Source: Candidatus Aerophobetes bacterium Ae_b3b (GTDB taxonomy: Bacteria > Aerophobota > Aerophobia > Aerophobales > AE-B3A). Taken from it: DNA of 64,000 nucleotides. The notes beneath the pieces were generated by a model. It was not told where the DNA came from. It saw only the letters and a program-made list of their open reading frames with translations, and did not search any database. Position 1 is the first letter of the stretch. The number at the start of each line of letters is the position of its first letter. The translations under genes and the position numbers were made by a program. Positions 32,224 to 50,290 of the stretch are shown here, piece by piece. The stretch is from positions 6,726 through 70,725 of the forward strand of contig NJBP01000004.1 in assembly GCA_005223085.1 (NCBI GenBank). The letters are read 5' to 3'.

Positions 32224-32262
32224 CGACTTCGCTTCATCGCCACAGGAACCACTGTAAAAAGA

Positions 32263-32289
32263 GGGGCCCAGTTTCTGCAGCTGGGCCCC
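32263..32289 (+). terminator. Intercistronic hairpin after the binding-protein gene
   Basis: GGGGCCCAG and CTGGGCCCC form a 9-bp GC-rich stem with a 9-nt loop between the binding protein and the first permease. Such stems commonly stabilise or partly terminate the mRNA to give excess binding protein. A like stem sits at the equivalent place at 55846-55882. Confidence 0.6.
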
Positions 32290-32311
32290 AGAACCAAGAA
32301 GGTGTCTTATA

Positions 32312-33196
32312 GTGAAGAAGCTTAAGTGGAGAAAACTTCTGGTTATCCTGGCCCTGCTGGGCCCAGCCATGGCTATGTTCATAGGACTTACCGTCTATCC
32401 TTTCATCAAAAACCTCATCTGGAGTACTACCTTTTTTGTCCTCTACAAACCTACAAGCCAATACGTTTCTGCTGGTCTGGAAAACTACAAGGATATTCTG
32501 TTTGGGATTGAATTCTGGAACAGCGTCGAATCCAGTTTAGTAATCGTTTTTGGAGCCCTGGCTATAGAGTGTTTCATTGGCCTGGGAGTCGCTCTGGTGC
32601 TAAATGAGAGGTTCCGGGGACGGGGCATTCTGAGGACTCTCTTCATTATCCCCATGGGAGTTATGCCCATAGTAGCCGGAGTGGTCTGGAAACTGATGCT
32701 CTTTCCTGGAGGGAGTCTAATTAGCGACATCCTGGTGAAGATGCGATTGGCTTCCGGTCAGCTCGACTTCTGGGGTGATGTCCGGCTAGCCCGACTGAGT
32801 GTCATGGCGGCGGACATCTGGGGCTGGACCCCTTTTGTGGGCCTTATTCTTCTGGCTGGCCTGCAGGCCATCCCCAGTGAGTTATACGATGCGGCCCAGG
32901 TGGACGGTGCCTCACAGCTGCAGAGATTCACCCATGTGACCGCCCCCCTGCTCAAGTACGCCATAATTGTTGCTCTTATGTTTCGGGGAATGGATCTCCT
33001 TCGTCTTTTTGACACGGTGTACATGATGACCCAGGGAGGTCCCGGATATGCTACAGAAGTCATCAGTTTCTTTATCTACCGAAAAGGCTTTTCGGAGTTT
33101 GGTGTGGGATACGCGGCTGCTACGTCGGTCATAGTATTCGTGGTAATCTTCGTCATAGCTCAAATTACGGTGCGCAAGTCCGGTATTGCTGCCTGA
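32312..33196 (+). CDS. ABC sugar transporter permease (MalF/UgpA type)
   Basis: The 294-residue inner-membrane protein has six predicted helices and the EAA-type loop YDAAQVDGASQLQRF where it docks with the ATPase. The start is GTG 32312. With the next gene it forms the heterodimeric permease for the binding protein upstream. Confidence 0.88.
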   Translation: MKKLKWRKLLVILALLGPAMAMFIGLTVYPFIKNLIWSTTFFVLYKPTSQYVSAGLENYKDILFGIEFWNSVESSLVIVFGALAIECFIGLGVALVLNERFRGRGILRTLFIIPMGVMPIVAGVVWKLMLFPGGSLISDILVKMRLASGQLDFWGDVRLARLSVMAADIWGWTPFVGLILLAGLQAIPSELYDAAQVDGASQLQRFTHVTAPLLKYAIIVALMFRGMDLLRLFDTVYMMTQGGPGYATEVISFFIYRKGFSEFGVGYAAATSVIVFVVIFVIAQITVRKSGIAA

Positions 33197-33207
33197 GAGG
33201 TCTAAAT

Positions 33208-34038
33208 GTGAAGAGAATAAACATACCTAAAACCATCGGCATTTGTCTGGTAGTCCTCTACGTTGTGGCGGCTCTAATTCCAGTCTACTGGGTGGTTACC
33301 ACCGCCTTTAAACCCCGGATAGAAGTGTATACCTTTCCGGTGAAGTATATACCTTCCTCTTTCACCTGGGAGCCAGCTCATAATTCCCTTACCCAGCGGC
33401 CAACCATGAGTTTCCTCCGAAACAGTCTCTTTGCTGCAGTCGGCGCTACTATTCTCGCTCTGGCGCTGGGAGTGCCAGCTGCCTATGCCCTAGCCCGAGA
33501 GAAATTCCCGGGAAGGAAGGATATAGCCTTTTTTATCTTGACCACCAGAATGTTCCCTCCGGTAACTATTTGCATCCCCATCTACTTTATTATTAGGAAT
33601 GTAGGGTTGTTGGATAGGCTCGCCGGTTTGATAATCGTATACGCCATGTTTAACCTGGCTATCATCATTTGGGTAATGAAGGGATACATTCAACAGGTGC
33701 CGGTGGAAATTGAGGAAAGTGCCAGGGTAGATGGTTGCACCAAACTGGGGGCTTTTATCAGAATCACCCTGCCTCTGCTTGCCCCCGGAATGGCTGCGGT
33801 AGCAATTATTTCTCTGGTATTGTCGTGGAACGAATTCCTCTACGCTCTCATACTTACTCATTCGCCGGCTGCCAAAACCTTGCCGGTGGGAATTGCTGAA
33901 TTCATTGGCGGTGCCTACGGCATTCTCTGGGGTGAAATCTGCTTCCTTGGTACTGTAGCCATTATCCCTATGATCGTGCTCATTATGGTGGTTCAGAAAT
34001 ACATCGTCCGCGGTTTGACTATGGGCGCCATAAGATAA
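33208..34038 (+). CDS. ABC sugar transporter permease (MalG/UgpE type)
   Basis: The 276-residue six-helix permease has the loop IEESARVDGCTKLGAFIRI and the characteristic end KYIVRGLTMGAIR. It starts at GTG 33208, 11 nt after the first permease, with a GAGAGG site. The ATPase is probably a shared one encoded elsewhere. Confidence 0.88.
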   Translation: MKRINIPKTIGICLVVLYVVAALIPVYWVVTTAFKPRIEVYTFPVKYIPSSFTWEPAHNSLTQRPTMSFLRNSLFAAVGATILALALGVPAAYALAREKFPGRKDIAFFILTTRMFPPVTICIPIYFIIRNVGLLDRLAGLIIVYAMFNLAIIIWVMKGYIQQVPVEIEESARVDGCTKLGAFIRITLPLLAPGMAAVAIISLVLSWNEFLYALILTHSPAAKTLPVGIAEFIGGAYGILWGEICFLGTVAIIPMIVLIMVVQKYIVRGLTMGAIR

Positions 34039-34718: not shown

Positions 34719-36002
34719 GTGGCTAGATTTGATCCGATTGTTTTCTCTTCCTGGGAGGGACTCCATCAGGAAAACTATTTGATAGCCATGTATTTTATGG
34801 AGGTGGAGGCTAGCGTAGATCCAGTAGAGTTGGGTGTAGAGATCGCAGTGGACCAGACTACTGGCACCTGGACTGCCGTACCAGCCGAAACACCGGAAGT
34901 CCGTCGTCACCATATGGCCAAGTTGATAGCTCTTCACGAAGTTCCAAATTATGAGTTTGAGGTTCCTCAGGATACCAAGACAAGGCGCTATCTAATTCAG
35001 ATAGCATTCCCTACCATAAACTTTGGACCCCAGATTCCCATGCTGTTGAGCAGTGTGTTTGGCAACTTATCGTCTCGTGGCTGGATAAAATTACTGGACC
35101 TTCAGTTTCCCAGAACCTTTCTGGAAAGTTTTCCTGGTCCAAAATTTGGAATTGAAGGATTGCGCAGGCTTCTAGGGATATGGGATAGACCAATCTTATG
35201 TAATGTTATTAAACCCTGTACTGGTATCAGTCCTGAAGTAGGAGCTGAACTTGTCTACCAGGCAGCCAGGGGAGGGGTAGATATCATTAAGGACGATGAG
35301 TTGATCGGTGATGCTCCCTTTTCTCCAATGGTAAAGCGAGTGAAGGAATACATGTGCCGACTCAAGGAAGCCGACGAACAGAAAGGCGAAAAGACGCTAT
35401 TTGCAATAAATGTTACTGACCGGCAGGATAAGATTCGGGATAACGCTCTGAGAGCGATTGAGGCAGGGGCTAACGCACTGATGATAAGCTTTGCAACGGT
35501 CGGTTTCTCCATGGTACGAACTCTGGCAGAGGATAAGTCCATAAATGTTCCCATAATGGGGCATATGAATTTTGCCGGCGCGCTTTGCGAATCACCATGT
35601 TCAGGTGTGAGCTCCGAACTAATCTGTGGAAAGTTGGCCCGAATGGTGGGTATGGATATGGTTCTTGTTTATCCTCCTCAGAGCCGATTTCATCTCATAG
35701 AAAATAAGTTTGAGCGTGTTGTGCAGATATTGCAGCAACCTTTTTCCAAAATAAAACCAAGCTTTCCTTTATTAGCTGGCGGTGTTCATCCGGGAATAGT
35801 TCCTGCTACTCTAGACTCAATGGGGACTGATGTCATTATTGGCGCCGGAGGTTCTGTTCACGGTCATCCTGGTGGTGCTGTAGCCGGAGCTCGGGCTTTC
35901 CGGCAGGCCTTTGAAGCCTATTCTCGTGGCGTTGACTTGGAAGGATGGGCTCAGGATAAAGAGGAGCTGCAGCAAGCCTTGGGACTTTGGGGAACAGCAT
36001 GA
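34719..36002 (+). CDS. RuBisCO-like protein (form IV type, RLP)
   Basis: The 427-residue protein has the RuBisCO large-subunit fold. By eye, the carbamate/metal motif GGVDIIKDDE (Lys191, Asp193, Glu194), the IKP lysine (Lys165), the TGTWT motif, a histidine equivalent to His294 (GHMNF, His282) and the phosphate loop GAGGSVHGHPGG are kept. Lys177 is Cys167, and the loop-6 lysine and His327 equivalents are absent, so it is not a CO2-fixing RuBisCO. It probably enolises or decarboxylates a phosphorylated keto acid. GTG start 34719 has AAAGGAGG 8 nt upstream. Its stop overlaps the E1 alpha start. Confidence 0.9.
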   Translation: MARFDPIVFSSWEGLHQENYLIAMYFMEVEASVDPVELGVEIAVDQTTGTWTAVPAETPEVRRHHMAKLIALHEVPNYEFEVPQDTKTRRYLIQIAFPTINFGPQIPMLLSSVFGNLSSRGWIKLLDLQFPRTFLESFPGPKFGIEGLRRLLGIWDRPILCNVIKPCTGISPEVGAELVYQAARGGVDIIKDDELIGDAPFSPMVKRVKEYMCRLKEADEQKGEKTLFAINVTDRQDKIRDNALRAIEAGANALMISFATVGFSMVRTLAEDKSINVPIMGHMNFAGALCESPCSGVSSELICGKLARMVGMDMVLVYPPQSRFHLIENKFERVVQILQQPFSKIKPSFPLLAGGVHPGIVPATLDSMGTDVIIGAGGSVHGHPGGAVAGARAFRQAFEAYSRGVDLEGWAQDKEELQQALGLWGTA

Positions 36003-36994
36003 GCTTGGTAGACGAAGAAGAAAAACAGCGGTCTGTTCTGGCTCCTGAGTTCTATAGAAAAATGTTAGCCGTTAGGCTATTCGAGCAGCGTGCTATTGAG
36101 CTTTACACTCGAGGAGAGATTCGGGGAGTTATTCACCCCTATATCGGTGAGGAAGCTGTAGCTGTAGGAGCGTGCGCTGTTCTCAACAATGATGACTACG
36201 TGGTTTCTACTCATCGCGGCCATGGCCATTGCATTGCCAAAGGAGCTTCATTGGATCGGATGATGGCCGAACTTCTGGGACGTAGCAATGGCTACTGTCG
36301 AGGAAAGGGTGGTTCCATGCATCTGGCCACCTTTGAAGTGGGAATGTTGGGTGCCATAGGTATCGTGGCAGCAGGTATTCCCATTGCTGTGGGAGCTGGA
36401 CTATCAGTGAAATTGAGAAAGACTCGTCAGGTAGTAATTTGCTTTTTCGGTGATGGTGCTGTCAACCAGGGAGCATTCCATGAGGGTTTAAATATGGCTG
36501 CTGTGTGGAACTTACCGGTTGTCTTTCTGTGTGAAAATAATTTCTATGCTATCTCTACTCACGTGAGCAGAGTTTCGGCAGTAACCGAGGTGGCTCGGAG
36601 GAGTTGTGCCTATGACATTCCAGGTAAGCGAGTCGATGGCAATTCCGTATGGGCTGTCTACGAGGCGGTTCAGGAGGCAGTAGCCCGGGCTAGACATGGA
36701 CATGGTCCAAGTCTCATCGAGGCTCTGACCTACCGCCATGAAGGACATTACAAGGGAGACCCCGGTCATTATCGACCACCAGAGGAGTTAAAAAAATGGC
36801 AACGGAAGGATCCCATTAAAAAGTTAAGGAAAGAGTTACTAGCTAAAAATTGGCTGGAGCCAAAAGCACTGGAGGAACTGGAACAGGAGGTTGCCCAAGA
36901 TGTACAAAGGGCCGTTGAGTTTGCCAGGAAGAGTCCCTATCCTGCAGAGGAGGAACTCACAAGCGATATATTCGGAGGAGACCATAGGAAATGA
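35999..36994 (+). CDS. Thiamine-diphosphate enzyme E1 component, alpha subunit
   Basis: The ~331-residue product matches the alpha subunit of acetoin/2-oxoacid dehydrogenase E1 enzymes. It shows SMHL and GRGHGHC-like motifs and the ThDP motif FGDGAVNQGAFHEGLN ending in CENN (GDG...NN). It pairs with the beta subunit encoded next (ATGA overlap). ATG 35999 overlaps the RLP stop and has GGGGAA upstream. No E2, E3 or lipoyl-protein gene follows, so it may act as a stand-alone ThDP lyase, transketolase or decarboxylase on the RLP pathway. Confidence 0.88.
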   Translation: MSLVDEEEKQRSVLAPEFYRKMLAVRLFEQRAIELYTRGEIRGVIHPYIGEEAVAVGACAVLNNDDYVVSTHRGHGHCIAKGASLDRMMAELLGRSNGYCRGKGGSMHLATFEVGMLGAIGIVAAGIPIAVGAGLSVKLRKTRQVVICFFGDGAVNQGAFHEGLNMAAVWNLPVVFLCENNFYAISTHVSRVSAVTEVARRSCAYDIPGKRVDGNSVWAVYEAVQEAVARARHGHGPSLIEALTYRHEGHYKGDPGHYRPPEELKKWQRKDPIKKLRKELLAKNWLEPKALEELEQEVAQDVQRAVEFARKSPYPAEEELTSDIFGGDHRK

Positions 36995-37968
36995 GGGAAA
37001 TTAGCTACCGAGACGCCATAAATGAGGCTTTACAAGAGGAGATGAAGCGCGATGAAAGAGTGATACTACTTGGCGAAGACATCTCGCACTATGGTGGACC
37101 TCGGCGAGTAACCTGGGGTCTTGTTGAGAGTTTTGGTGAAGACCGGGTCAGGGATACACCTATTTCAGAGAATACTATTATAGGCACGGGTCTGGGAGCC
37201 GCTATTACCGGTATGCGGCCGCTTGTGGAGATTTCGTATATAGATTTTGCTTTACTGGCTATGGATCAAATTGGTAACCAAGTAGCCAAATTATCCTATA
37301 TGACCGGTGGTCAAACCAAGGTACCTTTGGTTATTCGGACCCAGGGTGGGGCTGGTGGTGGCACCGCTGCTCAGCACTCGCAGAGCTTGGAGATGCTATT
37401 TGTACATATTCCTGGGCTGAAAGTGGTAATTCCGGCTACTCCTTATGATGCTAAGGGATTAATTAAGATGGCTATCCGGGATGATAGCCCGGTGGTCTTC
37501 ATTGAACACAAGTTGCTCTATAGTACCAAGGGAATGGTTCCGGAAGAAGAGTATCTTATTCCTTTCGGTAAGGCGGCAATTCGCCGCAGTGGTTCGGATA
37601 TTACCATGGTAACTTATTCGGCCATGTTGTCAGAAGTGATGGCGGCTGCTGACGTACTCCATCAGAAGGAGATAGAAGCAGAAGTGCTTGATCTGAGGAC
37701 CCTTATCCCATTAGATATTGATGGTGTTCTGGCCTCGGTGAAAAAGACAGGGAGGTTACTGATAATCCATGAGGCCTCTTTGGTTGGAGGAATGGGGGCT
37801 GAAATTGCTGCCCAAGTTCAGGAACAGGCATTTGACTATCTGGATGCCCCTGTTATCCGTCTGGGAGCAGTTCCGATACCTATTCCTTATTCAGAGTCCC
37901 TGGAGCGGCTGGTTTTTCCCAATAAAGGGAAAATAGTTACTGCTAGCCGTGCCCTAATTGTTGCTTAA
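36991..37968 (+). CDS. Thiamine-diphosphate enzyme E1 component, beta subunit
   Basis: The 325-residue product has the E1 beta hallmarks REISYRDAINEALQEEM, GEDISHYGG, DTPISENTIIGTGLGAA and FIEHKLLY, and a C-terminal transketolase-C domain with LIIHEASLVGGMGAEIA. It forms an alpha2beta2 enzyme with the preceding protein. The cluster then breaks: a ~700-bp stretch with a transposase relic follows before the next gene. Confidence 0.88.
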   Translation: MREISYRDAINEALQEEMKRDERVILLGEDISHYGGPRRVTWGLVESFGEDRVRDTPISENTIIGTGLGAAITGMRPLVEISYIDFALLAMDQIGNQVAKLSYMTGGQTKVPLVIRTQGGAGGGTAAQHSQSLEMLFVHIPGLKVVIPATPYDAKGLIKMAIRDDSPVVFIEHKLLYSTKGMVPEEEYLIPFGKAAIRRSGSDITMVTYSAMLSEVMAAADVLHQKEIEAEVLDLRTLIPLDIDGVLASVKKTGRLLIIHEASLVGGMGAEIAAQVQEQAFDYLDAPVIRLGAVPIPIPYSESLERLVFPNKGKIVTASRALIVA

Positions 37969-37981
37969 CCTGTGTCGGTTT

Positions 37982-38041
37982 GACACCCTAAAAATACTTC
38001 CCGTAAGCCACGTCGCTTGACGGCGTGGTAAGGGAGGTGTC
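37982..38041. repeat. Long nested inverted repeat after the E1 beta gene
   Basis: GACACC pairs with GGTGTC at the ends, then CTTCCC with GGGAG, then CCACG/CGTGG around a CTTGA loop. The structure spans ~60 bases. It could be a terminator-like element or one end of the decayed insertion sequence next to it. Confidence 0.55.
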
Positions 38042-38067
38042 CAGCGAAGCTGCGCTAAGTTGCTCTT

Positions 38068-38432
38068 TCAATTAGAATTCGGCAATTTGCACCAAAGACA
38101 GGAATTTGACGAGTGTCCAAAGAGGTTATGAAGAACAAAGTTGTAAACGTTCCTAAACGCCCTCGTAGTCTCCAGAGACGAGACCCTCGCTCTAGGGAGA
38201 AGCTTCCTGAGGTTGATCACTGCTGCTGTGAGGAGAAGTTGGGTCTCCATCATAGCGAGTGACCTGGCAACCAATTGCCCGAGCACTATCAATGTACCTT
38301 TTTCGATCTGGGTAAGTGTTGGATTCTTCCTTTTTCGCACAGTAGATAATTTAGTTAGTGCGATGGCTCTTAAATCGTCTTGGTAGCTTTCTACCCCGAG
38401 GACAGATGAAAAGATCTTGCTCTATCATAATA
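38068..38432 (-). pseudogene. Relic of an IS1182-type transposase (3' part)
   Basis: Minus-strand frames, broken by stops, give IEQDLFICPRGRKLPRRFKS followed later by MMETQLLLTAAVINLRKLLP. The first resembles the cysteine-bearing insert of IS1182-like DDE transposases (…F.CP.G..L), the second the common C-terminal end (…Q.LLTA.V.NLK). The catalytic part is absent. The relic splits the RLP/E1 genes from the dehydrogenase and kinases. Confidence 0.55.
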
Positions 38433-38672
38433 ACAGTATATTCAGGAGCGTTGGGAAGGCAGCAAATGAATGCAGTATATATCAGAAACTACTAAGGGAG
38501 AGGAAGGGGGATTTCAAGGGGAAAGAATTTCCCCTTGATTATCTTGTACGGAGGTAAACGTCCGCTTCTAGCATTTATTCTTCTTCAGCACCGTCAAAGT
38601 GATGGGTTTTGACCTGTGAGGGGATAATAGTATGCCGATTCGCTGAGAAAACAGTGAAAGGGGTTTTTGAGG
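38433..38672. other. Gap upstream of the hydroxyacid dehydrogenase
   Basis: Nothing recognisable apart from an AAAGGGG ribosome site at its end and a short palindrome near 38553-38570 (CGGA...TCCG). Probably the rest of the decayed insertion plus a leader. Confidence 0.3.
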
Positions 38673-39767
38673 ATGAGACTCTTGTTGACCAGTAAACTAG
38701 AAGATGAAGACCTGAAGATATTGAGTCGCTACTTTGATGAAATAAGAATTCGTGGTCTCTACGTGCGTTCCAAGATTCTCCGGCCAGAGGAACTGGCTGC
38801 GGAGTTAGGAAATGTTGATATTCTGGTAGTAGAGTTTGATCAGGTAACACCAGAGGTATTGGATACCGCACCCAACCTGAAGTTAATAGTTTCGCTGCGG
38901 GCTGGTGCAGGCCGTAACATTAACCTGAGGGCTGCCACAGAAAGAGGCATACTGGTGGCCTGCTGTCCCGGTCGTAGCGCTGATCAGGTGGCTGATTTCA
39001 CCCTGGGTGTGATAGTAGCCCTTGTCCGACACATTGCTGAGACTCACTGTCTAATCAAGTCTCGACAGCTTACCGAGAAAAATCCCAAGCGAGAGGGCTT
39101 TGCCAAAGGTGATGTTGTCTGGATTATGAATGATCCCCAGAACTTTAGCTTCTTGCGTTTCAAAGGACCCATATTAGCTGGTCGGACTCTGGGTATTTTG
39201 GGATTTGGTGTCATCGGCCGGGAGGTAGCCCGCCGAGCCGGAGGCTTTAAGGTAACTATGATTGCCCATGATCCCTACGTTTCACCTGAGGAAATAGCAG
39301 AATTTAGAGTAAAGCTGGTTGATTGCGACACTCTGTTCAGAGAGTCAGACTTTCTTACGGTGCATGTTAAGGATAGTCCTGAAACCCGTGGCTTGGCTGG
39401 AAGATATCAGTTCTCCCTGATGAAATCTACCGCTTACTTTATCAATACGGCTCGGGGTTCCGTCGTTGACTACAATGCCTTATACGAGGTGCTGGTTAAC
39501 AAGAAAATTGCCGGTGCAGCTCTGGATGTATTCGAGGAAGAACCGCTGCCCCCTGATCACCCACTGCTGGATCTGGACAATGTCCTACTGACTCCTCACA
39601 TTGCCGGGGCCAGTCCCGATTGCTATAGGGTATCCTCTCCCCTGGCGAGAAAGGCAATTGAGGACTTTCTGGCTGGTCGCAAACCGCGATTTCTGGCCAA
39701 CGAGCAGGTCTGGGAACGCCGAAGGTTCAGAATCGACAAAGACAAATCAGATTACCGGGAAAATTAA
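38673..39767 (+). CDS. D-isomer-specific 2-hydroxyacid dehydrogenase
   Basis: The ~364-residue NAD-dependent dehydrogenase of the SerA/phosphoglycerate-dehydrogenase class has the Rossmann motif LGILGFGVIGREVARR and catalytic Arg (INTARGSVVD), Glu (ALDVFEEEPL) and His (TPHIAGAS). It lacks an ACT domain. In this locus it probably oxidises a 2-hydroxy sugar acid or reduces the keto acid. ATG 38673 is chosen with AAAGGGG 9 nt upstream, over TTG 38667. Its TAA overlaps the first base of the kinase ATG. Confidence 0.87.
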   Translation: MRLLLTSKLEDEDLKILSRYFDEIRIRGLYVRSKILRPEELAAELGNVDILVVEFDQVTPEVLDTAPNLKLIVSLRAGAGRNINLRAATERGILVACCPGRSADQVADFTLGVIVALVRHIAETHCLIKSRQLTEKNPKREGFAKGDVVWIMNDPQNFSFLRFKGPILAGRTLGILGFGVIGREVARRAGGFKVTMIAHDPYVSPEEIAEFRVKLVDCDTLFRESDFLTVHVKDSPETRGLAGRYQFSLMKSTAYFINTARGSVVDYNALYEVLVNKKIAGAALDVFEEEPLPPDHPLLDLDNVLLTPHIAGASPDCYRVSSPLARKAIEDFLAGRKPRFLANEQVWERRRFRIDKDKSDYREN

Positions 39768-41281
39768 TGAGCTCTCGGGAATTGGTAATTGGAATAGATA
39801 TTGGAACTTCTCAAGCCAAAGGAGGGGTATTTGATCCCCAAGGCAGATGTCTGGGGAAGGCCTCCTTCTCGTATGCCATACATTCCCCACATCCTTCTTG
39901 GGATGAGGTTGACGCTGAGGACTGGTGGCAGGCGGTCTGTCACATAATCCACCAATCTCTTGCCACAGCCAGAGTGTCCAGCAGGGATATTGCTGCCATA
40001 TCAGTCAGTAGCCTGCTACCCTGCTGCCTTCCGGTCGATCACCAGGGAAACCCCCTCCGTAGGGCCATTATCTGGCGCGATCGGCGCACCGATCAAGAGT
40101 GCGCTTGGATGGAGCAGCACATCGGAGGCGATGCCTGCTTCGAAATCTCCGGCAACCGTATTGACCATTATTTCTGGGGTCCTAAGGTGCTCTGGATAAA
40201 GCATCAGGAGCCAAAAATCTTTAAGAGAACCTGGAAGCTGCTACAGGCTCACAGCTACATGGTGCTGAAGCTTTGTGGTGAAACGGTGACTGATTTCACC
40301 TGTGGCAATCTCTCTATACCCTTCTATGATTACCGCAGGAAATGCTGGTCACCTGCAATGAGTGAGAAGATGGGGGTTCCCATTGAGATGCTGCCTGATT
40401 TAAGACCTTCACACATGGTGGTCGGTCGGGTGAGCACCAACGTAACCGGAGAAACTGGTCTTGATAGGGGTACCCTGGTAGTCACAGGGTGTGGAGACTT
40501 TGCTTCCTCAACCCTGGGAGCGGGCGTTTATCGTCAGGGAGAGGCTTGCATGATGTTGGGAACCGCCGGAAACTTACTCATCCCTATGGATAACCCCAAC
40601 TTCGATCCCCGTCTCATTAATTCTTCTCATGCCTTGCCCAACCGGTACATAAGTTTTGCCACTTCTTATGCTGGTGGCTCACTTCAGTGGTTACGGCAGG
40701 TTCTGGCTGGATCAAGAAACGAATTTGACATCTCTTACCAACAGTTGGATTTGGAGGCCTCCCGCATCCCGCTAGGATCAGAGGGACTGCTGTTTCTCCC
40801 ATTTCTTCCGGGAGAACTTACTATTAACTGGGACCGGACATCACGAGGTGTCTTCTTTGGCCTAACTCTGAATCACACCAGAGGACACCTCTACCGAGCT
40901 GTACTGGAATCGATTGGATATCGATACCGTCACATGCTAGAAATCATGGCCAGTCGCGGAATCAGGGTGAAAAAAGCAACCCTTATCAATGGCGGTGGAA
41001 AAAGTCCAGTTTGGCGACAAATTCTGGCCGACATTACCGGTATGCACCTTAATTACACGGAGTCAGAGGGAGCTCCCCTGGGAAACGCAGTATTGGCTGC
41101 CATGGGAGCCAAGCTCATCAAGAGTGGCGAGGAAGTAAAGAACTGGTTATCGATAAAGAGTGAAACTGAACCCGACCAGAGAGCTTATCGGTTATACAAC
41201 GATTACTTTCAACTGTACAAAAGACTTTATGAGCACCTGAAGGATGATTTTCAGGAACGCTATCGCTTTGTTGGCAGCTAA
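39767..41281 (+). CDS. FGGY-family carbohydrate kinase 1
   Basis: The 504-residue ATP-dependent sugar or polyol kinase has the N-terminal phosphate loop IGIDIGTSQAKGGVFDP and the C-terminal adenosine/FGGY-type motif LINGGGKSPVWRQILADITG. FGGY enzymes phosphorylate xylulose, ribulose, erythritol, glycerol and relatives; the substrate cannot be read off. It overlaps the dehydrogenase by one base and is followed by a second, different FGGY kinase. Confidence 0.88.
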   Translation: MSSRELVIGIDIGTSQAKGGVFDPQGRCLGKASFSYAIHSPHPSWDEVDAEDWWQAVCHIIHQSLATARVSSRDIAAISVSSLLPCCLPVDHQGNPLRRAIIWRDRRTDQECAWMEQHIGGDACFEISGNRIDHYFWGPKVLWIKHQEPKIFKRTWKLLQAHSYMVLKLCGETVTDFTCGNLSIPFYDYRRKCWSPAMSEKMGVPIEMLPDLRPSHMVVGRVSTNVTGETGLDRGTLVVTGCGDFASSTLGAGVYRQGEACMMLGTAGNLLIPMDNPNFDPRLINSSHALPNRYISFATSYAGGSLQWLRQVLAGSRNEFDISYQQLDLEASRIPLGSEGLLFLPFLPGELTINWDRTSRGVFFGLTLNHTRGHLYRAVLESIGYRYRHMLEIMASRGIRVKKATLINGGGKSPVWRQILADITGMHLNYTESEGAPLGNAVLAAMGAKLIKSGEEVKNWLSIKSETEPDQRAYRLYNDYFQLYKRLYEHLKDDFQERYRFVGS

Positions 41282-41302
41282 CAGAGGACGAGGAGTGGTG
41301 CG

Positions 41303-42835
41303 ATGGTTGTAATAGGATTGGATCTGGGAACTACTGTCTGTAAAGCTGGGCTCTTCGATACCACAGGAAAACTTTTAAAACTGGTTAGAAGGGAATATCC
41401 GGTTACCAGTGATTATCCGGGGTGGGCTGAGCAGAATCCTGATATTGTTTGGAACACCATTCGAATGGTTTTGTCAGAGATCGCTGAAGATAAACAGTTA
41501 AACGATCCTATCAAGGCGATTTGCATCTCAGCTCAGGGTGAGGCAGTAGTCTTTCTCGATCAACGGGGCAGGCCCTTGCGTAATTCCATCCTCGGGATGG
41601 ATATGAGATCGGTGGAGCAGGCAGAGCGTTTAAAAAGCAAGCTGGGAGCCGAATGGTTTTTAGAGACCCCCGGAGTTCCTCCTCATCCCCTCACTACAGT
41701 AGCCAAGATCCTCTGGGTTAAGGAACATGAGCCGGAGATTGCCCAAAAAACTGTTCGCTACCTTTGCTATGAGGATTTTGCCTTCTTCAAACTAGGCGAC
41801 GTTCCCGCCATCGACTACTCCCTTGCTTGCCGGACTGGGCTTTTTGATATGAGAAAGAAAAAATGGTCAGCGAAGATATTGGATTATACCGGGATAAACG
41901 AAGATCAACTGGCCAACATCTACCCCTCGGGAGAGGCGATCGGCAAAATTAACCGAAAAATAGCTCATACTTTGGGCTTACCGACCGATATTCTACTGGT
42001 CACTGGCGGACACGATGTGACCTGTGCGGCTTTGGGAGCAGGTGCCATCAACAAGGGAGTGGGGGGAGATATTCTGGGGACGGCGGAAATTTTTGGCGTT
42101 ACTGTGGAGAACAACTCAGTGGCGAAAGAAATAAAACCGAGTAACTTTGCCTGCTACTGTCACGTAGTTCCGAACAAGTTCTGGCTGATGACTTTGAATC
42201 ACACCGGTGGGCTTCTCCTCAGGTGGTATCGAGATAACTTTGGTGAGTCAGAGGTAAAGCTGTCTGAGAAAGAAGGAAAAGATGTCTTTGACTTAATAGT
42301 AAGTAAAAGTAAGCCCGACATTGCAGAAAGCATGATCCTTCCCCATTTTGTAGGCAGCGGCACTCCCTGGATAGATGCTCGTTCCAAAGGAGCAATAGTG
42401 GGTTTGAGCATTCACACCAACAAAGCCGATATTATTCGAGCCATCCTGGAAGCCGTCATTTATGAGCAAAAGATAAGTATAGACATTTTTGAAAAATACG
42501 GAGTCGATATTAAAGAGATCAGAGCAGTGGGGGGAGGTAGTAAATCTCGGTTCTGGCTACAGATAAGGTCAGATATCCTGGGAAAAGCTGTTCTTACTTT
42601 GGAAACTGAGGAGGCTTCCTGCCTCGGAACCGCCATTCTTGCCAACTATGCTCTGGGGAATTATCCCTCTATTGAGAACGGCGTCGAACAAATGGTGAAG
42701 ATGAAGGACAGAATCGAACCGAACAAAAAACTTTACTCCCGGTACCAGCAAAGATATCTTATTTACCAAGAGCTTTACCCAGCCCTCAAGAAGATCAATT
42801 ATTCGCTTCAGCAAATAAGCTCCAGGGGAGGTTGA
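41303..42835 (+). CDS. FGGY-family carbohydrate kinase 2
   Basis: The 510-residue kinase has IGLDLGTTVCKAGLFDT at the start and AVGGGSKSRFWLQIRSDILG near residue 410. It is clearly distinct from its neighbour, so the pair is not a recent duplication. Two kinases may act on two pathway intermediates or two substrates. ATG 41303 has GAGGAG upstream. The stop leaves a GGGGAGG site used by the next gene. Confidence 0.88.
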   Translation: MVVIGLDLGTTVCKAGLFDTTGKLLKLVRREYPVTSDYPGWAEQNPDIVWNTIRMVLSEIAEDKQLNDPIKAICISAQGEAVVFLDQRGRPLRNSILGMDMRSVEQAERLKSKLGAEWFLETPGVPPHPLTTVAKILWVKEHEPEIAQKTVRYLCYEDFAFFKLGDVPAIDYSLACRTGLFDMRKKKWSAKILDYTGINEDQLANIYPSGEAIGKINRKIAHTLGLPTDILLVTGGHDVTCAALGAGAINKGVGGDILGTAEIFGVTVENNSVAKEIKPSNFACYCHVVPNKFWLMTLNHTGGLLLRWYRDNFGESEVKLSEKEGKDVFDLIVSKSKPDIAESMILPHFVGSGTPWIDARSKGAIVGLSIHTNKADIIRAILEAVIYEQKISIDIFEKYGVDIKEIRAVGGGSKSRFWLQIRSDILGKAVLTLETEEASCLGTAILANYALGNYPSIENGVEQMVKMKDRIEPNKKLYSRYQQRYLIYQELYPALKKINYSLQQISSRGG

Positions 42836-42839
42836 TAAA

Positions 42840-44147
42840 TTGGAACTGCTTTATCAAAAACTAAAATCTCTTCAAGAAAAAAAACAGCCTATAAAGGTGG
42901 GCCTGGTTGGATGCGGCCAGATGGGATCAGGAATGGTAAGTCTGGTAAGCCAGATGCCCGGATTAGAAGTTGCAGCCGTGGCCGAATTAGACCTGGAAAA
43001 AGCCAAAGGTGCTTATGAGACTGCTGGAATTCCCGAGGGAAAAATTGCCGTTGTTGAGGACCCGGAAAAAGCGGAGGATCTCCTAGGTAGAGGCAAAGTC
43101 ATCATCTGCAAAAATGCTTTGACTCTGGTTTCTATCCCTTCTCTTCAAGCAGTGGTGGAAGCTACTGGTATCCCTCGAGTCGGTGCCCAGATTGCTTTAG
43201 AATGCATCTTTCACCAAAAGCATGTAATTATGCTGAATGTGGAAACCGAGGTGACGGTGGGTTGGATACTGAAAAAAATGGCTGATAAAACCAATGTTAT
43301 CTACACCGTCTCGGCGGGAGACGAGCCGGGAGCCATAAAAGAGCTCTACAACTTCGCCTCTTCTTTAGGATTTTCGGTGGTGACCGCCGGGAAGGGTAAA
43401 AATAATCCCCTAGATTTGGATGCAACTCCTGATGAGTGCCAGGAAGAAGCCCTGAGAAAAGATATGAACCCCAAAATGCTAACTTCCTTTATAGACGGGA
43501 CAAAAACAATGATTGAAATGGCTGCAGTGGCCAACGCCACTGGTCTCGTTCCCGACGTCCCGGGAATGCATGGTCCCAAAGTTGATGTCTCTGAACTCAC
43601 TCAGGTATTAATACCCAAGAAAGACGGAGGTATATTGAGTAGAAGTGGGGTGGTTGACTACTCTATCGGCAAAGTGGCTCCGGGTGTTTTCCTGATAGTA
43701 ACCACGGGTAAAGAAAGGGTAAGAAAAGATTTAGGATTCTACGGCATGGGAGAAGGTCCCTATTACCTTCTTTACCGTCCTTATCATCTATGCAGTATAG
43801 AGACTCCTCTTTCCGTAGCTAGAGCGGTTCTTTTTAATGAACCCACCTTAAATTCAGAACAAAGAGTAGCTGAAGTGGTAACGGTAGCCAAGCAGAATCT
43901 AGATGTCGGAGTCACCATTGATGGAATAGGGGGCTACCATGTGCTTGGACGAATCTATCCAGCGCAAGAAGCAAGAAAAAAAAATCTTTTACCTTTAGGA
44001 CTAGCTGAAGGAGGCAGAGTCAAGATAAGAGTCGCCAAAGGGGAATACATCACTATGGATATGGTTGAGCCAGAAACGGAATCGACCGTTTACCAGCTTT
44101 GGAAATTACAGGAAAGCCTCTGGCAATCCGAGCTTAAGAGTAAATAA
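42840..44147 (+). CDS. Homoserine dehydrogenase-like oxidoreductase with C-terminal SAF domain (COG4091 type)
   Basis: The 435-residue product has an N-terminal Rossmann fold (VGLVGCGQMGSGMVSLVSQM) and a mid domain, and ends in a SAF-like domain (~365-435, DVGVTIDGIGGYHVLGRIYP and LAEGGRVKIRVAKGEYI). Proteins of this type occur beside polyol and branched-sugar catabolic genes; the reaction is not established. It starts at TTG 42840, with GGGGAGG in the end of the kinase. Confidence 0.82.
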   Translation: MELLYQKLKSLQEKKQPIKVGLVGCGQMGSGMVSLVSQMPGLEVAAVAELDLEKAKGAYETAGIPEGKIAVVEDPEKAEDLLGRGKVIICKNALTLVSIPSLQAVVEATGIPRVGAQIALECIFHQKHVIMLNVETEVTVGWILKKMADKTNVIYTVSAGDEPGAIKELYNFASSLGFSVVTAGKGKNNPLDLDATPDECQEEALRKDMNPKMLTSFIDGTKTMIEMAAVANATGLVPDVPGMHGPKVDVSELTQVLIPKKDGGILSRSGVVDYSIGKVAPGVFLIVTTGKERVRKDLGFYGMGEGPYYLLYRPYHLCSIETPLSVARAVLFNEPTLNSEQRVAEVVTVAKQNLDVGVTIDGIGGYHVLGRIYPAQEARKKNLLPLGLAEGGRVKIRVAKGEYITMDMVEPETESTVYQLWKLQESLWQSELKSK

Positions 44148-44175
44148 GTAAGACCGGGCTAAAAAGGAAGGTAGG

Positions 44176-44808
44176 TTGAATTTAGAAAAAGTAGAGGTGG
44201 TCCCAAGCAGGATGCTGCGGGTGAGGATACCGCAAGAACAGGGAGTAAGATCGGTCTTTTGCCGGACAGAATCAGGGACTGCCGGGACAGGTAAGCCAAT
44301 GCCGAAAAAGCTAGAATCTGAAGAAGGCGAGAAATACCACTTTGCTGTGGGAAGCGATCATGCCGGGTTCTCTCTAAAGGAGAGGATCAAAGAGTACCTC
44401 TGTGGAGAAGGAAGAGCTGTCCTGGATGTAGGTATCCATACTTTGAGGAGTGTCGGCACCGGGCCCGTAGCCGAGAAAGTGGGACGTCTGGTGGCCAAGG
44501 GGAAATGCGAAAAGGGTATTTTGGTTTGTGGAACCGGTATTGGTATGGCAATGGGAGCAAATAAAGTCTTCGGTATCAGAGCAGCCCTCTGTTACAACCA
44601 GTTTACTGCCTCTTATGCCAAGCGCCACAATGATGCCAACGTAATTTGCCTGGGAGCCCGGGTTCTGGGGGAAGAACTGGCCATTGAGTGTGTCAGGACC
44701 TGGTTAAGGGAAGAATTTCTGAGGGATAAATACGCCCAGCGCCTTGCCTATCTAGATGTTATTGAAAATCATTCCTGCCGGAATAAACTAGCAAAAAAGG
44801 GAGAGTGA
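44176..44808 (+). CDS. RpiB-family sugar-phosphate isomerase with N-terminal extension
   Basis: The RpiB domain starts near residue 55 (VGSDHAGFSLKERIKEYL) and carries the catalytic cysteine loop VCGTGIGMAMGANKV and the RHNDANVICLGARV motif. RpiB/LacAB/EryI enzymes interconvert ribose-5-P/ribulose-5-P, or erythrose-4-P/erythrulose-4-P. The ~50 residues before the domain are unusual for the family; an internal ATG at 44299 would give a normal ~169-residue enzyme. It fits as the last step turning a ketose phosphate into a central intermediate. Confidence 0.85.
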   Translation: MNLEKVEVVPSRMLRVRIPQEQGVRSVFCRTESGTAGTGKPMPKKLESEEGEKYHFAVGSDHAGFSLKERIKEYLCGEGRAVLDVGIHTLRSVGTGPVAEKVGRLVAKGKCEKGILVCGTGIGMAMGANKVFGIRAALCYNQFTASYAKRHNDANVICLGARVLGEELAIECVRTWLREEFLRDKYAQRLAYLDVIENHSCRNKLAKKGE

Positions 44809-44811
44809 ACT

Positions 44812-45849
44812 TTGAAAGCGTTAGTATATCATGCCATCCAAGACTTTCGCATTGAAGAGATTGAAAAACCCGCCTGTCCACCAGAAGGCTTACTTCTAAA
44901 AGTTAAAGCTTGTGGTTTGTGTGGAGGAGATGTTCGCACATACTTTGGGGGTCACAAAAGTGTCACTCCTCCCTGGATTATCGGCCATGAGATTGCGGGA
45001 ATAGTAGAAGAAGTGGGCGATCAAACTAAAGGTTTCCATAAGGGAAATCGTCTGGCGGTAGCTCCTGTCGTTTACTGCGGTAAGTGCCCCTTTTGCCTCG
45101 AGGGGAAACATTATCTTTGCCAGAATGTCAAGGAAATTGCTCAGCATTGGCCAGGAGGATTTGCTGAATTTATGGCTATTCCGGAAGATGCTTTGAAATT
45201 GGGAAATGTTAATGTCATTCCTCAAGGTCTTTCCTTTGAAGAAGCTGCCATTTCCGAGCCTCCATCTTCGTGCCTTAATGCGCAGGATCGTGCTCAAGTT
45301 GGAATGGGAGATAGCGTGGTTATCATCGGAGCAGGGCCGGTCGGCTGTTTTCACTGTGAAATTGCCCGTATTCGTGGCGCTCTAAAGATTGTTATGGTAG
45401 ATTTGTTGAATGAACGGCTAAAACTGGCCGAGCGATTTAGCCCCGATCTTCTTCTTGAGAGTAGTGACTCTGGATATCTTAAGAAGTTGAATGATGAAAC
45501 AGAAGGTTTGGGGGCAGATGTCGTTATTGTGGCCTGCTCTTCCACCAAAGCCCAGCAGGATGCGCTAGAAATTGCCAGAAACGGAGGCAGAGTCATCTTT
45601 TTTGGAGGGCTTGCTCCGGGGAAAAGTTCCTCCAGCCTTGATGCTAACCTGCTCCATTACAAGAATCTGCAGATTTTTGGTGCCTACAGTTTTTCTCCTG
45701 AGCATCATCGGCTTTCTTTGAAGCTAATATCTAAAGGAAAAATAGATGCCAAAAAGTATATCACTCATGTTATTCCCCTGGAGAACATCATTGAAGGCAT
45801 TAAGGCGGTGAAGGAAGGGATAGTTTTAAAAGTAGTGGTCAGGATTTAG
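44812..45849 (+). CDS. Zinc-dependent medium-chain alcohol/polyol dehydrogenase
   Basis: The 345-residue MDR enzyme has the catalytic zinc ligands (CGLCGGDVR, GHEIAG), the four-cysteine structural zinc lobe CGKCPFCLEGKHYLC and a Rossmann motif VIIGAGPVGCFHCEIAR. It resembles sorbitol/threonine/tagatose-type dehydrogenases; it may convert the imported polyol to a ketose. It starts at TTG 44812, four bases after rpiB. Its end overlaps the convergent MFS gene by four bases. Confidence 0.87.
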   Translation: MKALVYHAIQDFRIEEIEKPACPPEGLLLKVKACGLCGGDVRTYFGGHKSVTPPWIIGHEIAGIVEEVGDQTKGFHKGNRLAVAPVVYCGKCPFCLEGKHYLCQNVKEIAQHWPGGFAEFMAIPEDALKLGNVNVIPQGLSFEEAAISEPPSSCLNAQDRAQVGMGDSVVIIGAGPVGCFHCEIARIRGALKIVMVDLLNERLKLAERFSPDLLLESSDSGYLKKLNDETEGLGADVVIVACSSTKAQQDALEIARNGGRVIFFGGLAPGKSSSSLDANLLHYKNLQIFGAYSFSPEHHRLSLKLISKGKIDAKKYITHVIPLENIIEGIKAVKEGIVLKVVVRI

Positions 45850-47036
45850 GCGTTTAACTTGCCCATCTTTACTCTACCCATTAACAAAAAGCTGGCAAAA
45901 ATTGTAATAAAGGCGACAAGAAAGGCATATTTTATCCCGATTAGGTACATTAAGGCTATGCCTACAAAAGGAGCTGTTATTCCCCTGACGCCCATAAGGC
46001 TATAGTCAATCCCCCAGTAGGACCCAATTTCTTTCTCCCTGGCTGCCTTGGTTATATAATTAAGTCTTGCCAGCTCCACACCTCCCGTGGTAGCACCGGA
46101 AAATACCGTTGCTATTGCCACCAGATAAATATCAGAGCTCAGAAAATAAAGAAGGGGAACGAAACTGGTCAATATAAAAATACGGTGAAGGGCGGCCAGA
46201 GGACCTTTCTTGTCGATGTAGTGGCCCCAAAGAAGATAAGAGATCAGCCAGAAGGCCGAAAAAAGAGCCCCCAATTTTCCCGCATCAGCATTGGAAACAC
46301 GAAGAGTATCTACCAGGAAAATTGGATAAAGTGGCATAGCAATGAGATTGCCGAAACCGAAGATAAAAAAGGTAGAAATATAGCGAAGAAAGCTTTTATC
46401 TTTTTGAAAAATATCCCTTATCTTAAGTAGAGAAAAACGCTCATTACTAGATTTTGAATTTTCATCACTTTTAACTCTAATTTTACCAAAAAAGTGAAGA
46501 GAAAAAATTCCCACCGCTGCACCTAAAGGAAAGACATATCGATAACTGATTTGATCAAGCAAAAAACCGCCTCCATAGGTTGCTATAATGGCAGCCAGAG
46601 CGAGCTCCACCCGGACATAACCCATAAGCTTTGCTCGATCTTCATCCGGGTAAATATCCTTCATTATTCTGGTGTAGGCTGGGGTCCCAGCATACTCAAA
46701 AATCCAGTAAAGAAGGATAATCACCAGAAAGATTTCTGGCTTAAAGGCAAAAAATGTTAAAAAAAGAGAACATCGAGCGAGGATTTTCACACCGATCACC
46801 CAGGGCATTTTCTTTCTTTTTCCTGAGATGTGTGCCCAGTAAAACGTAAACAGAGCTCCAACGAAGGGAATGGCGGTAAGAAAAGCCATCTGGCCCGAAG
46901 TAGCCCCGATTTTTCTGGCAATTATAGGAAAGAAAGCAATGGTCAGTCCATAGAAAATTCCGTAGAGGAAACCTCCCGTAGAATCATAATAATAAGTCAC
47001 TCTTATCCAGGATGGGACTCTTCTATTAAAAAACAA
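45846..47036 (-). CDS. Major facilitator superfamily transporter
   Basis: The 396-residue protein has about twelve membrane helices and a basic cytoplasmic loop (HISGKRKKMPW) after helix 2, typical of MFS. The substrate is unknown. The start at TTG 47036 has AAAGGA upstream. It is the last gene of the minus-strand cluster. Its 3' end resembles a fragment at 29363-29430. Confidence 0.82.
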   Translation of the reverse strand: MFFNRRVPSWIRVTYYYDSTGGFLYGIFYGLTIAFFPIIARKIGATSGQMAFLTAIPFVGALFTFYWAHISGKRKKMPWVIGVKILARCSLFLTFFAFKPEIFLVIILLYWIFEYAGTPAYTRIMKDIYPDEDRAKLMGYVRVELALAAIIATYGGGFLLDQISYRYVFPLGAAVGIFSLHFFGKIRVKSDENSKSSNERFSLLKIRDIFQKDKSFLRYISTFFIFGFGNLIAMPLYPIFLVDTLRVSNADAGKLGALFSAFWLISYLLWGHYIDKKGPLAALHRIFILTSFVPLLYFLSSDIYLVAIATVFSGATTGGVELARLNYITKAAREKEIGSYWGIDYSLMGVRGITAPFVGIALMYLIGIKYAFLVAFITIFASFLLMGRVKMGKLNA

Positions 47037-47104
47037 AAGCTTTTTCCTTTCTTGGCTGAAATTCTCTAACTTTTTTTATCATGACCTCGAAGTGAGGTTG
47101 GTAG

Positions 47105-48292
47105 TTAAAGGCGAGAAAAAACGGTATCCAGAATCTTTACTGCCTCATCTATATCTCTTTCCTCAATAATTAAAGGAGGGAGAAAGCGAAGGATTTTTTC
47201 CATCGTACAGTTAATCAAAAGACCCCTGTCACGACACCTGTTGACAATATCTTTACCGGGAAACCCCAGTTCAAGTCCAATCATCAATCCCTTACCCCTC
47301 ATAGCTTTAATGAAGGAATATTTTTTCTTTAGTTCCTCCAACCCAACCCGAAAGTAGTTTCCCCTCTCTCGAGCCTTTTCAACTAGATTTTCTTTTCTCA
47401 CCACTTTCAGGAAGGCCAGGGCAGCCGAGCAAGCTAGAGGATTACCGCCAAAGGTAGAGGCATGAGTTCCCGGCTCAAACGCAGAAGCAACCTTCTCTTT
47501 AGCCAGAGTTGCCCCTATAGGCATTCCTCCACCCAGGGGTTTAGCCAGAGTCATCACATCCGGCTCAATCCCGTAGTGCTGGTAGGCAAACATCTTACCT
47601 GTCCTCCCCAGACCACATTGAACCTCGTCTAAGATTAACAGAATCTCCTCTTTATGGCAGAACTGGCGAAGCTCACGTAGAAAGGTCTCTGAGGCTACAT
47701 TTATCCCTCCCTCTCCCTGAATAGGCTCCAGCATTACCGCACAGGTTTTAGAAGAGATCGCTTTTTTAACTCCTTTTAGATCGTTGAAAGGGGCGTACTT
47801 GAATCCGGGAAGAAAAGGACCAAAACCATTTTGATATTTTGTCTGAGCAGTGGCTTTTAGGGTGGCCAGAGTCCTTCCGTGAAAGGAACCTTTCATAGTA
47901 ATTATCTCATATCTTCTTCCGCCCAGCTTGCTACCAAACCTTCGAGCCAATTTAATGGCAGCCTCATTAGCCTCAGCCCCAGAATTAGAAAAAAATACCT
48001 TATCAGCAAAAGAGACCTCGCATAGGGCCTCGGCCAATTTAGTCTGAGGGTTAATATGATAAAGATTAGAGCAGTGAAGAAGTCTCTTGAGTTGACTTTC
48101 AACAGCTTTAACTATTTCTGGATGGCAGTGTCCTACAGCATTTACCCCGATACCAGAGATAAAGTCAAGATACTCTTTTCCATCACTGTCCCAAATCCTT
48201 ACCCCTTCACCTCTTTCCATGGCTATAGGGATACGGGAATAGGTATGCATCACATATTTTTTGTCCAGTCTCACAACTCTTCGATTGTTCAT
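47105..48292 (-). CDS. argD: Acetylornithine-type class III aminotransferase
   Basis: The 395-residue PLP enzyme shows the ArgD pattern: IWDSDGKEYLDFISGIGVNA, NSGAEANEAAIKLAR, LDEVQCGLGRTG and the PLP lysine in TLAKPLGGGMPIGA. It transaminates N-acetylornithine or related amines (ArgD/DapC class). No other arginine genes are nearby. It follows rnfC by one base, so its presence in a sugar operon is odd. Confidence 0.85.
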   Translation of the reverse strand: MNNRRVVRLDKKYVMHTYSRIPIAMERGEGVRIWDSDGKEYLDFISGIGVNAVGHCHPEIVKAVESQLKRLLHCSNLYHINPQTKLAEALCEVSFADKVFFSNSGAEANEAAIKLARRFGSKLGGRRYEIITMKGSFHGRTLATLKATAQTKYQNGFGPFLPGFKYAPFNDLKGVKKAISSKTCAVMLEPIQGEGGINVASETFLRELRQFCHKEEILLILDEVQCGLGRTGKMFAYQHYGIEPDVMTLAKPLGGGMPIGATLAKEKVASAFEPGTHASTFGGNPLACSAALAFLKVVRKENLVEKARERGNYFRVGLEELKKKYSFIKAMRGKGLMIGLELGFPGKDIVNRCRDRGLLINCTMEKILRFLPPLIIEERDIDEAVKILDTVFSRL

Positions 48293-48293
48293 T

Positions 48294-49601: not shown

Positions 49602-49612
49602 CCTCACCTCTC

Positions 49613-50290
49613 CTATTTTTCGGGGTCAAAGCCGCAGATCTTCCTGAAGGATCTGGTGGCTTTCTCCAGATCCTCCTTTCCACTGAATATACTTGATGTA
49701 CCGGCTACCAAGACATTGGCCCCAGCAGAAAGGACCTGCGGGACAGTTTTCTCATTGATATTACCATCTACTTCAACGTCTATGTTGAGCTCTTTTTCTT
49801 CGATTAGCTCTCGTAAGCGCTTGATTTTAGGTACCACTGCCGGAATAAAGGCTTGCCCAGCATATCCGGGATCAACGGTCATCAATAAGACCATATCAAC
49901 CTCTGCCAATACATATTCAATCGAGGAAAGAGGTGTAGCCGGATTAAGAGCCACACACGCCCTCATTCCGTTTTCTTTGATTACATCGATTACACGGTAC
50001 AGAAAATGACAAACCTCCACATGGATGGAGATGATGTTGCTTCCCACCTCAGCGAATCTGCCAATGTATTTCTCTGGATTAGTAATTTGGAGATGTGCAT
50101 CAAACGGAAGAGAGGTTTTATCTCTTAAAGATTCGAGAATCAGCGGTCCCAGCATCAGATTGGGAACAAAATGGCCATCCATAATATCGAAGTGGAAGAG
50201 ATCTATCCCTCCCTTTTCCAGTTTCTTTATTTCATCCCCCAGCCTGGTAAGATCTGCACACATTAATGAGGCAGCAACTTTCACTTTCAT
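49613..50290 (-). CDS. rpe: Ribulose-phosphate 3-epimerase
   Basis: The 225-residue TIM barrel has the Rpe motifs ASLMCADLTRLGDEI, DLFHFDIMDGHFVPNL, VLLMTVDPGYAGQAF and VEVDGNINEKTVP, including the metal-binding His/Asp residues. It interconverts ribulose-5-P and xylulose-5-P, in line with the xylulokinase-like gene upstream. An aldehyde:ferredoxin oxidoreductase remnant ends 24 bases before its start. Confidence 0.93.
   Translation of the reverse strand: MKVKVAASLMCADLTRLGDEIKKLEKGGIDLFHFDIMDGHFVPNLMLGPLILESLRDKTSLPFDAHLQITNPEKYIGRFAEVGSNIISIHVEVCHFLYRVIDVIKENGMRACVALNPATPLSSIEYVLAEVDMVLLMTVDPGYAGQAFIPAVVPKIKRLRELIEEKELNIDVEVDGNINEKTVPQVLSAGANVLVAGTSSIFSGKEDLEKATRSFRKICGFDPEK

Follow-up and report, generated by a model that had tools for sequence, protein, structure and literature searches.

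We analysed a 64,000-nucleotide stretch of Candidatus Aerophobetes bacterium Ae_b3b (contig NJBP01000004.1, positions 6,726 to 70,725; hereafter the window), in which nine genes on one strand start with a RuBisCO-like protein (RLP) and include both subunits of a thiamine diphosphate (ThDP)-dependent E1 enzyme, two FGGY kinases and what is very probably a type II 1-deoxyxylulose 5-phosphate (DXP) reductoisomerase, DXR-II (Table 1). The source metagenome-assembled genome (MAG), G000, has 2.04 Mb in 86 contigs at 88.6% completeness, and the window lies on its contig C33; the order was covered by 17 genomes (G000–G016), and as its MAGs are fragmented and incomplete, the absence of a gene from any single genome carries little weight, a pattern over eleven genomes more. 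An open reading frame (ORF) check of the window confirmed that the nine genes reported by a sequence-only reading of this DNA are genuine ORFs, all in the same orientation. That reading also described them as mostly overlapping, which is true of the RLP/E1alpha and E1alpha/E1beta junctions (ATGA overlaps) and close to true of the 2-hydroxyacid dehydrogenase (HADH), which abuts FGGY kinase 1, but not of the ~700 bp ahead of HADH (37969–38666), which contain no ORF of 100 residues. After this gap comes a second, tightly spaced run (HADH-FGGY1-FGGY2-DXR-II-RpiB-Zn-dehydrogenase), so the locus may comprise two transcripts; a weak terminator-like stem-loop lies within the gap at 38514, though such matches are not commoner than chance. 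The ribosome site of the RLP is AAAGGAGG, and the E1alpha start was taken as the ATG that overlaps the RLP stop, a TTG at 35987 being set aside.

Table 1. Genes and gene groups of the RLP locus and its surroundings, in window coordinates
Feature	Coordinates	Strand	Basis and remarks
SorC-type sugar-binding transcriptional regulator	29608..30546	+	Pfam Sugar-bind
CUT1 ABC sugar importer (binding protein and two permeases)	30682..34038	+	Pfam SBP_bac_1, BPD_transp_1 (binding protein, first permease)
Second CUT1 permease	33208-34038	+	Judged from its own sequence and homologues
RLP, form IV, uncharacterised clade	34719..36002	+	RuBisCO_large 175.8 bits; proposed ketose-phosphate enolase/isomerase
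ThDP-dependent E1alpha, pyruvate dehydrogenase (PDH)/acetoin dehydrogenase type	35999..36994	+	Family models, ThDP motif
ThDP-dependent E1beta	36991..37968	+	Family models, catalytic Glu
D-2-hydroxyacid dehydrogenase family protein (HADH)	38667..39767	+	Pfam; 83% identical copy beside FGGY1 and DXR-II in G012:C50
FGGY kinase 1, xylulokinase-like	39767..41281	+	Family models; 85% identical copy in G012:C50
FGGY kinase 2, xylulokinase-like	41303..42835	+	Family models
DXR-II (very probable), formerly 'COG4091 SAF'	42840..44147	+	Pfam DRL_cat 235.9 bits
RpiB-family sugar-phosphate isomerase, N-terminal extension	44176..44808	+	65% identical copy beside DXR-II in G005:C27
Zn-dependent sorbitol/threonine-type dehydrogenase	44812..45849	+	57-66% identical copies beside DXR-II in G005:C27, G013:C46, G015:C7
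Convergent sugar operon, possibly linked	45846..57407	-	Pfam

The protein first labelled COG4091 SAF lost that label, as it belongs to Pfam DRL_cat and is in all likelihood, judging from its sequence, a DXR-II. It is ~44% identical over its full length to the Brucella DXR-II (DRL; 3UPL, PMC3847144) and keeps all five of the residues (G121, T229, H250, R320 and V351) that separate DXR-II from the related DLO families (PMC3847144), DLO-like outgroups differing at T229, H250 and V351. In a tree it grouped with the protein of G005:C27 (100/99), near the DXR-II of Priestia, Listeria and rhizobia, with the DLO-like rows nested on a long branch. It was nearer to these proteins than to the DXR-II orthologue found order-wide, of which G000 has a copy on C35 and G011 a copy adjoining an IspG-like gene, its other neighbour there being read by eye as IspD; the tree therefore ruled out a housekeeping role for the window copy. 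At L073 (G011:C73) two IspG-like frames lie in opposite orientation beside DXR-II. Unlike the Brucella enzyme, the window copy sits in a sugar operon beside the RLP and E1 genes and is taken as possibly catabolic, and with this identification the likely chemistry of the locus shifts from sugar acids to 1-deoxy-ketose phosphates.

Alignment of the RLP (RuBisCO numbering) showed that K175, K201, D203, E204 and H294 are retained, while Arg, Leu and Met stand at K334, H327 and R295; the sequence-only reading had thus correctly seen a protein that keeps the carbamate lysine (K201) and lacks that of loop 6 (K334). Because these three residues are replaced the protein should not carboxylate, which sets it apart from the RuBisCO carboxylases, and with a RuBisCO fold, K201, D203 and E204 present and the carboxylase residues incomplete it is a form IV protein. 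Its best PDB matches were to MtnW, the 2,3-diketo-5-methylthiopentyl-1-P enolase (2OEK), which lies in the same half of our 31-row RLP tree (the R. rubrum RLP is not among the rows); however, no mtnK, mtnX, mtnB or mtnD genes neighbour the window RLP, which scored below the MtnW cut-offs (322.8 vs 513.6 for TIGR03332 and 360.4 vs 409 for NF007095) and fell outside the MtnW clade (100/100), in a clade of its own (100/99). In addition it has an Asn, as do RuBisCO and the short isomerase-type RLPs, where all three MtnW rows have a Lys (the column of Geobacillus Lys98; RuBisCO N123), a residue that Imker in 2007 reportedly found to be catalytic. The proposed analogy to the OiaX/OiaT RLPs of the D-apionate pathways, which share the superfamily and the sugar operon setting, failed: the RLP scored 219.7 against an NCBIfam OiaX cut-off of 700 and stood in the other half of the tree, apart from OiaX and the DUF1537-linked RLPs. 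The apiose kinase was rightly said to be missing (no DUF1537 kinase is among the neighbours), the window RLP lies outside MtnW and OiaX in an uncharacterised clade, and the suggestion of an unrecognised sugar route stood up as likely.

The window RLP clade, on the side of the tree that holds MtnW and the short isomerase-type RLPs, includes RLPs from an unrelated phylum (G177) and from two Actinomycetota MAGs (L005 and L006). RLPs of this clade adjoin FGGY kinases in G177, G216, G194 and G197, with a kinase two genes away in L006, which suggests that their substrate is a ketose phosphate. The 5-deoxyribose salvage pathway (kinase, isomerase, aldolase; PMC6079011) offers a possible substrate class, a class II aldolase lying beside the related RLP of L006; however, that pathway uses aldol cleavage, whereas a ThDP cleavage is proposed here for the window locus. 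Among other RLP loci, L037 and L113 each have adjacent FGGY kinase and RLP genes together with a saccharopine-dehydrogenase-like oxidoreductase, directly beside the RLP in the first and, in similar-looking form, ~4 kb off in the second, which is possibly a reductoisomerase analogue. In L038 and L039, from two genomes, the RLP is directly followed by a protein that by eye resembles an HMGL of the isopropylmalate/homocitrate synthase type.

E1alpha and E1beta scored highest against PDH-type models (385.9 bits, just below the cut-off of 393.85, and 399.6 bits, above that of 321, respectively), and with an intact ThDP motif and catalytic E1beta Glu they belong to the PDH/acetoin dehydrogenase E1 family. 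Chemically, DXP is acetoin bearing a substituent, and acetoin dehydrogenase E1 naturally acts on substrates of this type; some of the plasmid E2 proteins described below are annotated as acetoin dehydrogenase; however, the window locus differs from an acetoin dehydrogenase complex in having no acetoin genes, and neither E2 nor E3 is among its annotated neighbours, the single E2 of G000 lying on C37.

The pairing of RLP and E1 genes is recurrent. G000 has three RLPs, on C10, C23 and C33, and its only three full-length split E1alpha genes are found at the same loci, paired one to one. As the three RLPs belong to three clades far apart in the tree and the loci differ in gene order, these are not copies of one duplicated block, and each RLP having its own split E1 pair makes RLP and thiamine chemistry look coupled; we consider it probable that the two act in one route. 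A further RLP-E1 pair occurs in a genome of the same genus (G001:C19), and in G162 a split transketolase takes the place of E1 (TkN-TkC-RLP). Likewise, five of six examined annotated plasmid loci with a short RLP have the order mtnK-mtnA-TkN-TkC-RLP beside a sugar ABC importer, the sixth lacking it. G000 also encodes MtnA, the isomerase that yields 5-substituted ribulose 1-phosphates. On these rhizobial-type plasmids (L094, L114-L117) the arrangement is apparently an operon for the catabolism of methylthioribose or 5-deoxyribose. Our survey found no RLP-E1 pairs in two further phyla.

Other loci of G000 were unusual in their own right. The RLP-E1 locus on C10 (L043:1-14000) has genes for an MttB-family methyltransferase, a corrinoid protein and URO-D-type proteins beside two xylose-isomerase-like TIM barrels, while C22 (L108:3289-9827) encodes a fused E1 of 787 residues in a sugar operon with an FGGY kinase, a TIM barrel, a Zn-dehydrogenase and a cupin. 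This cupin resembles Rru_A2000 (3JZV, E 9e-18), although other cupins score higher; the bicupin of C23 showed no convincing similarity (E 0.011) to the sulfurylase acting on 1-methylthioxylulose 5-P (MTXu-5P).

DXR-II has its own links to thiamine enzymes. Of the 39 best plasmid records for DXR-II, many of which are close relatives and not independent, 32 have E1alpha immediately downstream of it on the same strand, in several alphaproteobacterial genera. DXR-II typically occurs there with a sugar-binding regulator, with a glucitol-type phosphotransferase system (PTS-Gut) or an ABC importer, and with E2, in some cases also E3 and lipoyl synthase; such DXR-II-E1-E2 operons suggest catabolism of methylerythritol-like polyols. 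In the DXR-II operons of L096, L098, L099, L100, L102, L103 and L104, E1-E2(-E3) genes are accompanied by regulators of the sugar-binding type and by an ABC importer or a PTS of the glucitol type, and on Listeria plasmid L105 DXR-II occurs with a PTS alone. Priestia has E1alpha-E1beta-E2-lpdA and a PTS within ~12 kb of DXR-II. Within the order, G002 and G005 have DXR-II next to E1, and G000:C19 and G013:C243 have it together with a split transketolase, so that all four pairings of RLP or DXR-II with E1 or split transketolase are observed. The complete nine-gene neighbourhood was found nowhere else, and a scan of genome contigs yielded two relatives only; sub-modules are conserved. Relatives of FGGY2, for instance, adjoin RLPs in G000:C23, G001:C19 and G015:C26 and DXR-II in G005:C27 and G013:C46.

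The upstream SorC-type regulator and CUT1 importer (29608-34038) fit the locus in function. The regulator shares 62% identity with a SorC protein encoded upstream of DXR-II-E1 in G002:C20, and sugar-binding regulators also adjoin DXR-II on plasmids of Priestia, Terrarubrum, S. meliloti and Listeria. At the other end, RpiB fits the RpiB subfamily but not the EryI-type proteins that the sequence-only reading brought into the comparison, its score against the EryI-type D-erythrulose-4-P isomerase model being 105 bits against a cut-off of 240. The convergent operon encodes an MFS protein, a class III aminotransferase, an RnfC-like protein, Rpe, a third FGGY kinase, an aldo-keto reductase, a DeoC/LacD aldolase and its own CUT1 importer, and relatives of its DeoC and FGGY proteins adjoin an E1 in G012:C26.

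As RLP-E1, RLP-transketolase, DXR-II-E1 and DXR-II-transketolase pairs all occur, the simplest metabolite common to them is DXP or a 1-substituted analogue. From the family identities, the diagnostic DXR-II residues and the recurrent pairings we tentatively propose, as the best model, an undescribed route for the breakdown or salvage of sugars via DXP, with the following substrates, direction and role for E1. The importer would bring in a 1-deoxy- or branched sugar for phosphorylation by the FGGY kinases or, alternatively, a 5-deoxypentulose would be formed and then phosphorylated. The RLP would remove the proton at C3 of a 2-ketose 1-phosphate, reprotonate the enediol and so convert a 5-deoxypentulose 1-phosphate to DXP, by analogy with the type of reaction of the R. 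rubrum RLP. DXR-II would interconvert DXP and 2-C-methylerythritol 4-phosphate (MEP), admitting methylerythritol-type substrates and passing DXP out to isoprenoids. E1alpha/E1beta might split DXP between C2 and C3, as acetoin dehydrogenase does acetoin, releasing glyceraldehyde 3-phosphate together with an acetyl unit bound for E2/CoA, or might run in reverse from pyruvate; the single E2 of G000 is a possible acetyl acceptor. RpiB, HADH and the Zn-dehydrogenase would prepare or drain further sugars.

There is precedent for parts of this scheme. In the R. rubrum MTA-isoprenoid shunt (Rru_A1998 and cupin Rru_A2000; PMC4958253) an RLP likewise acts on a 5-substituted ribulose 1-phosphate toward DXP without needing O2, and a Deep-Ykr RLP converts MTRu-1P to MTXu-5P, from which a cupin makes DXP (PMC4958253); however, the window RLP is of a different clade and is partnered by a ThDP-dependent E1 with FGGY kinases, an importer and DXR-II, no cupin being in the locus. 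That thiamine enzymes can gain DXP-forming activity was shown by E. coli PDH E1 (aceE) mutants, in which DXP rises ~20-fold (PMC3424233).

Several observations weigh against the DXP scheme. The clade of short isomerase-type RLPs (cupin- or mtnKA-linked; 100/100) excludes the window RLP, which shares only its half of the tree, and in other phyla RLPs of the window clade neighbour FGGY kinases only and no E1. No E1 accompanies the RLPs of G005:C84 and G015:C26, whose contigs are short. E1 pairs also occur in sugar operons with neither RLP nor DXR-II (G012:C37 and G011:C178), so E1 may do something more general. The window E1 did not join the DXR-II-linked plasmid E1s in an E1alpha tree, the window DXR-II is not the order-wide orthologue that likely serves MEP synthesis, and HADH, RpiB and the Zn-dehydrogenase have no fixed place in the scheme.

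Isoprenoid synthesis in the order bears on the same question. DXP is its usual starting compound and is made by the thiamine enzyme DXP synthase (DXS). DXP reductoisomerase (DXR) was found in six and DXR-II in ten of the 17 genomes, none having both and one having neither, while DXS accompanies DXR in five of its six genomes and is missing from all eleven genomes without DXR (nominal Fisher p 0.0006 for the DXR/DXR-II pattern and 0.001 for the DXS pattern, not corrected for shared ancestry). IspH was present in all 17 genomes and IspG in 16, or in eleven and ten, respectively, of the eleven without DXS and DXR; as these eleven lack both enzymes yet keep IspH, they must obtain DXP from elsewhere or MEP from outside. 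A 2023 survey counted 181 species in which Dxs alone is missing and considered that an alternative to Dxs probably exists (PMC10663253). As universal DXS substitutes the RLP and split transketolase were rejected: no RLP was detected in DXS-less G003, G006, G011, G013 and G016, and split transketolase was not seen in G001, G002, G003, G006 and G012. E1 pairs are candidates for DXP formation, but a single E1 orthologue as the universal substitute was not supported, as no one E1 clade runs through all DXS-less genomes.

An alternative to the DXP scheme is that RLP and E1 are coupled on another class of substrate: E1 would cleave a 2,3-diketone or a 3-ketose formed when the RLP tautomerises a ketose phosphate, and HADH-FGGY1-FGGY2-DXR-II-RpiB-Zn-dehydrogenase would be a separate module acting on branched tetritol phosphates. 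The ~700 bp gap divides these two modules in the window, G005:C27 and G013:C46 have part of the second with no RLP or E1, G012:C50 has part of it with no E1, and RLP-E1 occurs without DXR-II in G000:C10, G000:C23 and G001; however, as DXR-II directly adjoins E1 in G002, G005 and many plasmids, the modules meet repeatedly, and we consider this explanation unlikely. It is quite improbable that the E1 pairs stand in for the missing DXP synthase, joining pyruvate and glyceraldehyde 3-phosphate for isoprenoids in a biosynthetic or dual locus: the joint loss of DXS and DXR, the DXR-II-E1 adjacency in G002 and G005 and the aceE mutants (PMC3424233) fit this idea, but no E1 clade has a single member in each of the DXS-less genomes, most E1s lie in sugar operons with importers, and the rhizobial DXR-II-E1-E2 operons look catabolic. 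We give little credence to E1alpha/E1beta being ordinary PDH E1s that sit in sugar operons to serve flux, with mere co-regulation behind the RLP adjacency; while PDH-type models score highest, G000 has one E2 gene and the E1 of G004:C40 adjoins an E2, genomes have several divergent E1s, each in its own sugar operon, all three split E1s of G000 lie beside three unrelated RLPs, and transketolase replaces E1 beside other RLPs. Most improbable is an OiaX/OiaT-like role for the RLP, decarboxylating or rearranging a 3-oxo acid phosphate, given its score, tree position and lack of a DUF1537 kinase neighbour, despite the common superfamily and the nearby 2-hydroxyacid dehydrogenase and kinases.

Beyond this locus, the DXP scheme would be an instance of a more general kind of pathway, not described so far, in which 1-deoxy-ketose phosphates are supplied by a RuBisCO-like isomerase or by DXR-II and then cleaved by a thiamine-dependent enzyme; we regard this generalisation as doubtful. 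In the open literature, as far as titles and abstracts tell, we found neither a methylerythritol or DXP catabolic route nor an RLP-FGGY route. Most RLP clades have no assigned function, and the present data tie several of them to thiamine chemistry and name candidate substrates. DXR-II has hitherto been treated as biosynthetic, while its repeated occurrence in operons with importers and an E1-E2 complex points to a catabolic role. The lineage described here lacks Dxs and Dxr together, and it offers concrete candidate enzymes for the published question of a Dxs alternative. If the general pathway exists, DXP would be a catabolic intermediate, which would explain the loss of DXS and DXR in this lineage, and methylerythritol-type compounds would gain a degradation route in rhizobia and bacilli. 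Methylerythritol-type polyols are plant products and are also formed from isoprene in air, and a route for their degradation would carry ecological weight.

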